Source: Inmirania thermothiophila (GTDB taxonomy: Bacteria; Pseudomonadota; Gammaproteobacteria; DSM-100275). Taken from it: a stretch of 64,000 nt of DNA. The notes under the pieces are model-generated. The model had not been told where the DNA came from. It worked only from the letters and a program-made list of their open reading frames with translations, and made no database searches. Location: the NCBI RefSeq assembly GCF_003751635.1, contig NZ_RJVI01000001.1, positions 908,726-972,725 on the forward strand, read 5' to 3'. Positions within the stretch are counted from its first letter, which is position 1; the number at the start of each line of letters is the position of its first letter. Made by a program: the position numbers and the translations under genes. Positions 4,805 through 43,942 of this stretch are shown in pieces.

Positions 4805-4970
4805 ACCCCGGGCCGGTCTCCGGGCTTGCGGGTGGGATCGCTCCCGGGGTCCGCGCCTTCCCAGGCCCGAGGCCCAGTGGCGTCGGTGCGGACCCTTCAC
4901 CCGCCTACCGTTGCGGGGGCAGCGCCGGACTTGTCCCGCGCGGGACGCACCGGCTTCCCGTTTCACGCCG
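4805..4970 (-). promoter_or_regulatory. Cobalamin (B12) riboswitch upstream of tonB
   Basis: Read on the minus strand, the gap holds the conserved blocks of the cobalamin riboswitch in the right order. These are GTGAAACGGGAAGCCGGTG (4966 down to 4948), CCCCCGCAACGGT (4919-4907), GCCACTGGG (4881-4873) and the B12 box AAGCCCGGAGACCGGCC (4827-4811). The box ends about 77 bp before the tonB GTG start. Such elements bind adenosylcobalamin and lower expression of uptake genes when B12 is plentiful. The element points at tonB and the adenosyltransferase. The btuC/btuD-type genes lie upstream of it and are not directly controlled by it. Exact P1 ends are uncertain. Confidence 0.93.
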
Positions 4971-4994
4971 CGTCGCGGCGCACCCGAGGCCGCG

Positions 4995-10976: not shown

Positions 10977-12500
10977 CTACCCGGAGGTCACCGGGATGCC
11001 GCCGATGCGCGCCCGCCACTCGCGCGGGCCGCGCTCGTGGATGGATTCGCCGCGGCTGTCCACGGCCACCGTGACCGGCATGTCCACCACCTCGAACTCG
11101 CGGATCGCCTCCATGCCGAGGTCCTCGAAGGCGACCACGCGGGCCTTGCGGACGGCCTTGGAGACCAGGTAGGCGGCGCCGCCGACGGCGATGAGATAGA
11201 CCGCTCCGTGGCGGCGGATGGCCTCGATGGCCTCGGGGCCCCGCTCGGCCTTGCCGATCATGCCCAGCAGCCCGGTGTGGGCGAGCATGAGCTCGGTGAA
11301 CTTGTCCATGCGGGTGGCGGTGGTGGGGCCGGCCGGGCCCACCACCTCGTCGCCCACCGGGTCCACGGGGCCGACGTAGTAGATGAAGCGGCCGCGGAAG
11401 TCGACCCCCTCGGGCAGGGGCTCGCCGCGGGCGATGAGGTCGGCGAGGCGCTTGTGGGCGGCGTCGCGCCCCGTGAGCAGCCGCCCAGTGAGGAGCAGGC
11501 GGTCGCCGGGCCGCCACGAGGCCACCTCCTCGGGGGTCACCTTGCCGAGGTCCACGCGCCGCGCCTCGGGGCCGGGCTTCCAGTCGATGCGCGGCCATGC
11601 GTCGAGGGGCGGCGGGGTGAGCTCGGCCGGGCCCGAGCCGTCGAGGACGAAGTGGGCGTGGCGGGTGGCGGCGCAGTTGGGGATCATGGCCACCGGCAGC
11701 GAGGCGGCGTGGGTGGGGTAGTCGAGGATCTTGACGTCCAGCACCGTGGTCAGGCCGCCGAGGCCCTGGGCGCCGATGCCGAGGGCGTTGACCTTGTCGT
11801 AGAGCTCGAGGCGCAGCTCCTCGGCGCGGTTCGACGGCCCCCGCTCGCGCAGGCGGTGGATGTCGATGGGGGCCATCAGCGCCTCCTTGGCGAGCAGCAT
11901 CGCCTTCTCGGGCGTGCCGCCGATGCCGATGCCCAGCAGCCCCGGCGGGCACCAGCCGGCGCCCATGGCGGGTACGGTGCGCAGGACCCAGTCGACGAGG
12001 TCGTCGCTGGGGTTGAGCATGGTGAACTTGGCCTTATTCTCGGAGCCGCCGCCCTTGGCGGCGACGATCACGTCCACCTTGTCCCCCGGCACCACCTGCA
12101 TGTGGATCACCGCGGGGGTGTTGTCGCGGGTGTTGGTCCGCCGGCCCGCCGGGTCGGCGACGATGGAGGCCCGCAGCGGGTTGTCGGGGTCGGTGTAGGC
12201 GCGGCGCACGCCCTCGTTGACCATCTCCTCGACGCTGCGCCGTGCCGCCCAGCGCACCTCCATCCCGATCTTGAGGAAGACCACGGCGATGCCGGTGTCC
12301 TGGCAGATGGGGCGGTGCCCCTCGGCGCACATGCGGGAGTTGAGCAGGATCTGCGCCATGGCGTCGCGGGCCGCCGGCGACTGCTCGCGCTCGTAGGCCT
12401 CGGCCAGCGCCTGGACGTAGTCCAGCGGGTGGTAGTAGGAGATGAACTGGAAGGCGTCGGCGATGCTCTGGACGAAGTCCTCTTCGCGGATCACGGCCAT
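10977..12500 (-). CDS. fumA: Class I (iron-sulphur) fumarate hydratase
   Basis: Product of 507 aa, the single-chain class I fumarase. It interconverts fumarate and malate with an oxygen-sensitive [4Fe-4S] cluster. Candidate cluster cysteines are in RMCAEGHRPICQDTG (C58, C66), with others in GAGWCPPGLLG and IPNCAATRHAHF. The C-terminal beta domain shows GPVDPVGDEVVGPAGPTTATRMDKFTE and IAVGGAAYLVSKAV. It is the last gene of the sucA-sucB-lpd cluster on the same strand. A 12-bp-stem hairpin lies between lpd and fumA, so expression may be partly separate. Its 3' end abuts the 65-bp repeat array. Confidence 0.95.
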   Translation of the reverse strand: MAVIREEDFVQSIADAFQFISYYHPLDYVQALAEAYEREQSPAARDAMAQILLNSRMCAEGHRPICQDTGIAVVFLKIGMEVRWAARRSVEEMVNEGVRRAYTDPDNPLRASIVADPAGRRTNTRDNTPAVIHMQVVPGDKVDVIVAAKGGGSENKAKFTMLNPSDDLVDWVLRTVPAMGAGWCPPGLLGIGIGGTPEKAMLLAKEALMAPIDIHRLRERGPSNRAEELRLELYDKVNALGIGAQGLGGLTTVLDVKILDYPTHAASLPVAMIPNCAATRHAHFVLDGSGPAELTPPPLDAWPRIDWKPGPEARRVDLGKVTPEEVASWRPGDRLLLTGRLLTGRDAAHKRLADLIARGEPLPEGVDFRGRFIYYVGPVDPVGDEVVGPAGPTTATRMDKFTELMLAHTGLLGMIGKAERGPEAIEAIRRHGAVYLIAVGGAAYLVSKAVRKARVVAFEDLGMEAIREFEVVDMPVTVAVDSRGESIHERGPREWRARIGGIPVTSG

Positions 12501-42285: not shown

Positions 42286-42315
42286 AAAAAAGGCAGTCTC
42301 GCGGGCGAGACCGCC
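42286..42315 (-). terminator. Intrinsic terminator just upstream of argD
   Basis: Minus strand: GGCGGTCTCG, loop CCCG, CGAGACTGCC (10-bp stem with one G-U pair), followed at once by TTTTTT. This is the best intrinsic terminator in the window. It lies 36 bp after the rquA stop and 26 bp before the argD start. It either ends rquA transcripts or acts as an attenuator in an argD leader. A second inverted repeat (CCCGGG arms, 42325-42346) sits just upstream. Confidence 0.85.
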
Positions 42316-42351: not shown

Positions 42352-43065
42352 CTAATCTAGCGCCGCCCCGGCGCCCCCGCAAGGGAGGCGGCGGGCGATC
42401 ACGAGCTGGTAGAGGCCGCCGAAGAAGGTGCGCTGCGACCACCGGCAGGCCGGCGCGGACGGGGCGAAGGCCTCGACCGGCTGCTGCCAGAGGTCGGCGG
42501 CGAAGGGCTCGAGGGTGGCGAAGACGGCGGCCATCACCGGCCGCAGCGGGTGGAGCGGGTGGGGTCGGTGGTAGTCGACGAAGACCGCCCGCCCTCCGGG
42601 ACGAAGCGCCCGCAGCAGCCGCGCCACCACCTCGGTGCGGGCCTGCGCCGGCAGCTCGTGGAGGAGGAAGAAGGCGAGGGCGCCGTCGTAGCCCTCGGCC
42701 TCGAGGCGGGTGAGGTCGCCCCGGCAGACCCGGGCCCAGCGGATGCCGCGCAGCTTGCCGCGGGCGTTGCGGACCTGGACCGCGGCGGCGTCGAGCACGT
42801 CGAGTCGTCCCTCGGGGCCGACCCGGCGCGCGATCCGCAGGCTCAGGTCGCCGTAGACGCAGGCCGCCTGGAGCACCCGCTGGCCGGGTCCGAAGCAGGC
42901 CGCGGCGGCGCGGGCGAGGCGCCGGTACTGGCCCCAGAGAATGGCGTTGACCACCCAGGGGCGGTCGAACCTGCGCACCGCGCCGGGGGTGAGGTAGGCC
43001 CAGCGGTAGTGGCGCGCGAGGTAGTCGGGGACGGTGGCGGATGCCTGCGCGGTCGATTCGCTCAC
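42352..43065 (-). CDS. rquA: Rhodoquinone biosynthesis methyltransferase-like protein RquA
   Basis: Product of 237 aa. The sequence follows the RquA pattern as I remember it: VPDYLARHYRWAYLTPGAV, then ILWGQYRRL, VLQAACVYGDLSLRIARRV, FFLLHELPAQ, VFVDYHRPHPLHPLRPVM and FFGGLYQLVIARR. RquA resembles class I SAM methyltransferases but uses SAM as an amino donor to convert ubiquinone to rhodoquinone. Rhodoquinone is the low-potential quinone for fumarate reduction. ACVYGD replaces the usual Gly-rich SAM motif, as expected. The GTG start has a TAGAAT -10 (43099-43094, minus) about 28 bp upstream. No fumarate reductase is in the window. Confidence 0.85.
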   Translation of the reverse strand: MSESTAQASATVPDYLARHYRWAYLTPGAVRRFDRPWVVNAILWGQYRRLARAAAACFGPGQRVLQAACVYGDLSLRIARRVGPEGRLDVLDAAAVQVRNARGKLRGIRWARVCRGDLTRLEAEGYDGALAFFLLHELPAQARTEVVARLLRALRPGGRAVFVDYHRPHPLHPLRPVMAAVFATLEPFAADLWQQPVEAFAPSAPACRWSQRTFFGGLYQLVIARRLPCGGAGAALD

Positions 43066-43157: not shown

Positions 43158-43739
43158 TCAGCCGAGGTTGCGATTGGCAAACTCCCAGTTGACCAGGTTC
43201 CAGAAGGCCTCGACGTACTTCGGCCGCGCGTTGCGATAGTCGATGTAGTAGGCGTGCTCCCAGACGTCGCAGGTCAGGATGGGGGTCTTGCCCTCGGTCA
43301 TGGGGTTGCCGGCGTTGGCGGTCTGCACGATCTCGAGGCCGCCGTCGGCGTTGCGCACCAGCCAGGCCCAGCCGGAGCCGAACAGCGTCACCGCCGCCTG
43401 CGTGAACTGCTCCTTGAAGGCGTCGAAGGAGCCGAAGGCGCGGTCGATGGCCTCGGCGACGGCGCCGGTCGGGGCCCCGCCGCCGTTGGGGCTGAGGCTG
43501 TGCCAGTAGAAGGTGTGGTTCCAGACCTGCGCGGCGTTGTTGAAGATCCCGCCCGGGGGCGCCTTGCGCACGATGTCCTCGAGGCTCATGTCGGCGTACT
43601 CGGTGCCGGCGATGAGCTTGTTGAGGTTGGCCACGTAGGTGGCGTGGTGCTTGCCGTAGTGGTACTCGAGGGTCTCGCGCGAGATGTGGGGCGCGAGCGC
43701 GTCCATGGCGTAGGGCAGCTCCGGAAGCTTGTGCTCCAT
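43158..43739 (-). CDS. sodB: Superoxide dismutase, iron type
   Basis: Product of 193 aa. Metal ligands are H27 ([11 protein letters not shown]), H75 (QVWNHTFYW), D158 and H162 ([11 protein letters not shown]). Gln71 in NNAAQVWNH and the ending WEFANRNL favour the iron form, probably cytosolic. It converts superoxide to oxygen and peroxide. The ATG follows GGGAGGA. A longer in-frame extension upstream lacks a ribosome site. Downstream 43066-43157 is GC-rich and holds the rquA promoter. Confidence 0.96.
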
Positions 43740-43942
43740 GGTGAGATCCTCCCTTCTTTTGTGGGCGATGGTTTCCGTGGCGCGCCGCCTGGCAGCAGTG
43801 TAGCCGCCCGGGAGGCGCGGTGTGGGAAGGATGCTACGCGGGTGCGCCGCGGCGGGCATTGAGCCAGGTCAGTTTCCCGAGTGCCGCGCGAGGGAAAGGG
43901 GCTGGGCTACAATGGCCGCCCGTCGGCCTGGGGAGGGCGGAG

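Follow-up and report, generated by a model that had tools for sequence, protein, structure and literature searches.

Introduction

The nearest described system to the gene analysed here is RquA of Rhodospirillum rubrum and its relatives. In the R. rubrum enzyme, which has the UniProt accession Q2RPC3, the pair Asp118 and Asp143 is needed for rhodoquinone (RQ) synthesis, and the double mutant makes no RQ8 (passages of PMC9814641). RquA is already known from many proteobacterial orders in published work, to which the present gene adds a further member. The orders for which RQ has been inferred number 24, and one genome-predicted RquA from outside the Pseudomonadota led to no RQ in E. coli (both in passages of PMC13386864). 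To find yet another RquA is therefore a small surprise. Here we describe an rquA gene in a window of 64,000 nucleotides from the genome of Inmirania thermothiophila. The gene has in common with the R. rubrum system a degenerate SAM motif I, the spacing of two aspartates and a host that is predicted to produce ubiquinone (UQ), and it differs from other RquA loci in its gene neighbours.

Results

The rquA open reading frame (ORF) is found on the minus strand of the window (42352-43065), starts with GTG and comprises 237 codons, encoding a protein of 237 amino acids. In an NCBIfam profile search the best match of this protein is NF038261 (rhodoquin_RquA, rhodoquinone biosynthesis protein) with 281.9 bits (E 3.4e-84, cut-off 175), a score that excludes a chance match. 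The alignment is full-length, covering model positions 1-218, and the runner-up models trail far behind (CpaM 36.7 bits, UbiE 27.6 bits). Pfam recognises the general methyltransferase fold alone (Methyltransf_25, 43.7 bits; Ubie_methyltran, 22.4 bits), and a search for a solved RquA structure returned none, the hits being distant methyltransferases (E 4e-8 to 6e-8). An earlier note on this DNA had claimed that the ORF fits the RquA pattern, including the residues ACVYGD, and both the profile score and the motif LQAACVYGD bear this out. Judged by its sequence, the ORF is a true RquA.

Diagnostic residues were compared between 86 RquA-type rows, consisting of the Inmirania protein, 80 named public bacterial loci and five loci from the same class, and 27 other methyltransferases, which include E. 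coli UbiE and UbiG and the host's own UbiE. The degenerate SAM motif I of the Inmirania protein (LQAACVYGD, L65-D73; 42847-42873, minus strand) contains Gln66 and Tyr71, the marks of RquA, whereas the UbiE of the host reads LDLAGGTGD. Gln66 and Tyr71 are kept in 86 of 86 RquA-type rows and neither occurs in any of the 27 comparison proteins, which have Asp (26) or Ile (1) at position 66 and Thr (25), Gly (1) or Ser (1) at position 71. Asp92 (42790-42792, minus strand), the counterpart of R. rubrum Asp118, is invariant (86/86), and Asp117 (42715-42717, minus strand), the counterpart of R. rubrum Asp143, is Asp in 83 rows and Asn in three type-2 rows (see below). The two are 25 residues apart, as in R. 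rubrum, the match being drawn from this spacing and from alignment columns, with the R. rubrum sequence itself outside the alignment. Moreover, His136, Glu137, Glu186 and Pro187 are invariant across the 86 rows. The 80 named loci, the best 80 of 398 confirmed, were found via two peptide patterns, one containing HE[LQ]P and the other YL near the N-terminus, and the invariance of His136, Glu137, Pro139, Leu16 and Tyr20 is therefore partly by construction. The conservation of Gln66, Tyr71, Glu186, Pro187 and Tyr219 is free of this bias.

The Pfam matches to a class I SAM-dependent fold family would also suit an ordinary methyltransferase of the UbiE/UbiG/COQ5 group. However, the score with the UbiE model is far below the cut-off of 378 bits, motif I is altered, and the host already has a UbiE of its own (404.6 bits against the same cut-off). 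In addition, a 52-row tree obtained by a careful search places 29 type-1 RquA rows, with the Inmirania protein among them, on one side of a 100/100 branch, and separates the UbiE rows with 100/100. This tree took in 18 of the 80 named loci and 19 of the 25 type-2 matches, its RquA rows being free of biochemically verified members. Thus score, motif and tree set the protein apart from UbiE, the demethylubiquinol methyltransferase, and as far as sequence reaches an identity of this type is rejected; we give it next to no credence.

The Inmirania protein sits on a long terminal branch (0.63) in a six-row clade (100/98), whose other members come from two MAGs (Rhodobacter and Paracoccaceae) and from three genomes in a single family of the host's class. 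Its closest named relatives are those of the Rhodobacter sp. MAG (L031, 53% identity) and the Paracoccaceae MAG (L032, 50%). This mixed alpha- and gammaproteobacterial company fits a lateral movement of rquA, as published for the gene (passages of PMC5953543 and PMC11707229). A recent plasmid-borne transfer, on the other hand, was rejected: searching a plasmid collection with rquA gave no match, and both the G+C content of the gene (0.76, against 0.746 for the window) and its codon pattern agree with the window and so leave no mark of fresh arrival. As a separate observation, the rquA on a contig filed as Synechococcaceae cyanobacterium (L055) sits beside Competibacteraceae sequences, probably because of a binning error.

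Of the 369 genomes of the class that were scanned, 36 gave a match at E <=1e-30. Their scores are bimodal: 11 genomes, Inmirania included, reach at least 224 bits (type 1), and 25 lie at 143-184 bits, straddling the cut-off of 175 (type 2), which makes the type-2 relatives commoner in the class than true RquA. The second catalytic Asp position, read in 19 of the 25 type-2 sequences, is Asn in 15 and Asp in four. Of the 19 type-2 rows in the tree, 17 group together (92/87) and two fall elsewhere, so that the monophyly of type 2 is not shown. UbiU was detected in 16 of 20 type-1 genomes (the 11 of the class scan and nine reached via named loci) and in 8 of 25 type-2 genomes (Fisher p 0.0023, uncorrected for kinship or incomplete genomes), and MenD in 1 of 20 and 0 of 25, respectively. 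The neighbours of type-2 genes include 2-oxoacid:ferredoxin oxidoreductase subunits at 4 of 16 loci and a heavy-metal P-type ATPase at 4 of 16. The type-2 loci (L004, L005, L006 and L173-L188) come from the same class as the host. For such proteins the RquA name is assigned by a model near its cut-off and has to be treated with care: type 2 may be a deep branch within RquA, possibly equivalent to either of two groups in the passages of PMC5953543, or a different enzyme. The literature passages that were searched, with supplements outside their scope, contain no account of the split between the two types.

In the window, rquA is flanked by argD and by sodB, which lies on the same strand 92 bases upstream. 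The sodB ORF (43158-43859, minus strand), in the earlier note an Fe superoxide dismutase, indeed has an Fe-type model as its best match (PRK10543 FeSOD, 327.6 bits over residues 41-232), but the score is slightly below the cut-off of 348; its true start is probably internal to the ORF. Just past the rquA stop is an intrinsic-terminator-like hairpin followed by a T run (42292-42315, minus strand; 10-pair stem, TTTTTTGCTT tail), for which the argument is the position and not the count (one found, against a mean of 1.0 in shuffles). FNR-type sites with <=2 mismatches are absent near rquA, the five matches in the window being elsewhere (mean of 1.15 in shuffles), and FNR control of the gene was rejected because it has no site nearby. 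A conserved sodB-argD-argF-asnB neighbourhood was rejected as well, since in the flanks examined these genes are near rquA at 0 of 80 other loci (best 80 of 398). Complex II genes are common beside rquA elsewhere: among the same best 80 of 398 named loci, at least 34 have an SdhA-like and at least 41 an SdhB-like gene, both lower bounds as many flanks ended at contig ends. Neighbour distances come from 83 of 96 loci (the 80 named and 16 others), those in which a simple gene caller recognised rquA; at the other 13 it did not. In Inmirania the common linkage is absent, with rquA on contig C1 and sdh on contig C2. Two further observations concern other features: two Rhodobacteraceae MAGs (L031:10754-11896 and L032:11431-12585) have a similar FAD-dependent flavoprotein shortly downstream of rquA, and the window contains a cobalamin riboswitch (4805-4989, minus strand; 83 bits, gathering threshold 31.5).

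The solitary rquA, distant from complex II and quinone genes, and the long terminal branch of its product could also mean that the protein is an RquA by descent that has lost RQ production or yields mere traces. This is improbable, since the RquA-type marker residues that were checked are retained, the ORF is uninterrupted and the protein scores far over the cut-off of the model. By analogy with its characterised relatives, we infer that the protein has RquA enzyme activity.

The host genome (2.61 Mb, five contigs) is 99.85% complete, and its closest relatives in the genome collection compared share its class only, with no order-mates among them. It encodes UbiT (134.0 bits, cut-off 46.9), UbiV (408.5, cut-off 275) and UbiU (568.5, cut-off 440) of O2-independent UQ synthesis in adjacent genes. 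Besides the UbiE mentioned above, there are UbiA (330.7 bits, cut-off 275.45), UbiB, which is over its cut-off, and two UbiH-family hydroxylases over the subfamily cut-off. On this gene content the host is predicted to produce UQ with and without O2. MenD and a further, MenA/MqnP-like prenyltransferase were sought in the host genome and not found. UbiA is the sole PF01040 protein found in the genome, which means that no MenA or MqnP is seen, and since no menaquinone pathway was found, RQ would be the sole low-potential quinone. Together, RquA and the pathway for its substrate make RQ biosynthesis by the host a well-supported prediction, and we infer that RQ is present in the cells. At L139:1289-3836, ubiE and ubiB are adjacent with 43 bases between them; ubiJ, which intervenes in E. 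coli, is missing there, and UbiT is encoded elsewhere.

Of complex I, NuoD, NuoF, NuoL and NuoM are over their cut-offs, and the oxygen reductases are of the cbb3 type and the aa3 type, the latter with a subunit I just under its cut-off (667.0 against 670.75 bits). This aa3-type subunit I is present (G000 C2:897970-899313), yet the one PF01040 protein found is UbiA (C1:420914-421654), so that the heme O synthase CtaB is not seen.

SdhCDAB is the one complex II of the genome. SdhA scores 914.6 bits with the sdhA_forward model (cut-off 727.35) and 547.6 with the fumarate reductase model (cut-off 932.7), SdhC is over its cut-off and SdhD was read by eye. Searching the whole genome for the FAD_binding_2 family yielded SdhA as the one complex II flavoprotein, its neighbour NadB, and no frd operon, and no FrdA was above the cut-off genome-wide. 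In the earlier note RQ-based fumarate reduction had been predicted: RquA stands and RQ biosynthesis is well supported, and the fumarate step is possible but weakened by the lack of an frd operon and by the single SdhA. The note had further named a class I fumarase and oxidative dehydrogenase complexes, and both are there. The fumarase (10977-12500, minus strand), in which the alpha and beta parts are fused, exceeds the cut-offs of the two class I Fe-S domain models, TIGR00722 and TIGR00723 (222.6 against 100.65 and 156.2 against 145.15 bits), and the E1 and E2 components of the 2-oxoglutarate and pyruvate dehydrogenases are over cut-off. What fell was the argument that this fumarase predicts fumarate respiration: it directly adjoins lpd-sucB-sucA and thus belongs to the ordinary equipment of the oxidative (TCA) cycle and says little about fumarate respiration. 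A single complex II flavoprotein (>560 bits) is found in 14 of the 20 type-1 RquA genomes and two in the other 6, as counted by eye with split fragments taken as one gene. The lack of a second one is thus usual among RquA genomes, and SDH working in reverse is still the preferred guess.

Other reductases might be served by RQ instead. The genome encodes nine distinct proteins of the molybdopterin oxidoreductase family, NuoG included (ten matches, two within one frame). One of the nine (L145) is a Psr-like molybdoenzyme accompanied by an Fe-S subunit of the Ttr/Psr type and by an NrfD anchor. In all, the genome has two NrfD-containing molybdoenzyme loci, and it also encodes formate-dehydrogenase-like enzymes. 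The periplasmic nitrate reductase is represented by NapA (1584.4 bits, cut-off 904), NapG (377.7, cut-off 269), NapH (424.6, cut-off 234) and NapC/NirT (311.3, cut-off 310.6), and APS reductase by AprA (949.7, cut-off 641.75), which suggests sulfur metabolism in the host. With no menaquinone genes found, RQ might be a general low-potential quinone that mainly replaces menaquinone in feeding the NrfD-anchored, Psr-like sulfur-compound reductase and the Nap system (NapGH, NapC), and not fumarate reduction. Two points speak against this. The catalytic subunit at L145 is under every specific cut-off (PhsA, 377.9 against 694 bits) and so points to no particular substrate or direction, and NapC and NapGH can also use ubiquinol. 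We consider this reading unlikely. Elsewhere (L147:5790-10563), an alpha/beta pair of the type II DMSO reductase family is far under the specific cut-offs (337.8 against 984.75 and 278.9 against 480.7 bits).

Discussion

In the reading that we prefer, RquA would replace a methoxy group on the UQ ring by an amino group, with SAM as the amino donor and Mn2+, to give RQ. The potential of RQ is about -63 mV, compared with about +100 mV for UQ. When oxygen is short, electrons from NADH would enter RQ via complex I, and the rhodoquinol would be re-oxidised by a low-potential acceptor system, most likely fumarate, through the sole complex II, SdhCDAB, working in reverse. The absence of a dedicated fumarate reductase and the location of rquA and sdh on separate contigs argue against the link to fumarate. 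Fumarate reduction in this host is nevertheless plausible from its genes, and SDH would presumably be reversed, and used in this way, under low oxygen. We assign a probability of about 0.75 to the combination of a working RquA and RQ loaded by complex I at low oxygen, with reversed SdhCDAB and fumarate as the most likely outlet. The host can probably go on respiring via RQ at low oxygen.

Candidatus Thiosymbion oneisti is likewise a gammaproteobacterial sulfur metaboliser with rquA and without menaquinone (passages of PMC8269255). Polysulfide/thiosulfate reductase genes are reported for it in the same passages, comparable to the Psr-like genes of Inmirania. In contrast to the Inmirania genome, which has SDH only, it possesses frdABCD (again in those passages), and in L075, a genome from a related Thiosymbion, there are two complex II flavoproteins instead of one. 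Should the replacement of menaquinone be true after all, RQ would have taken the place of menaquinone in the sulfur or nitrate respiration of this lineage.

Inmirania adds a well-supported predicted RQ producer with a compact respiratory set, consisting of complex I, one SDH and no menaquinone genes found. It is thereby well suited to the question of whether a single SDH of the standard kind can be a succinate oxidase and, with RQ, a fumarate reductase.
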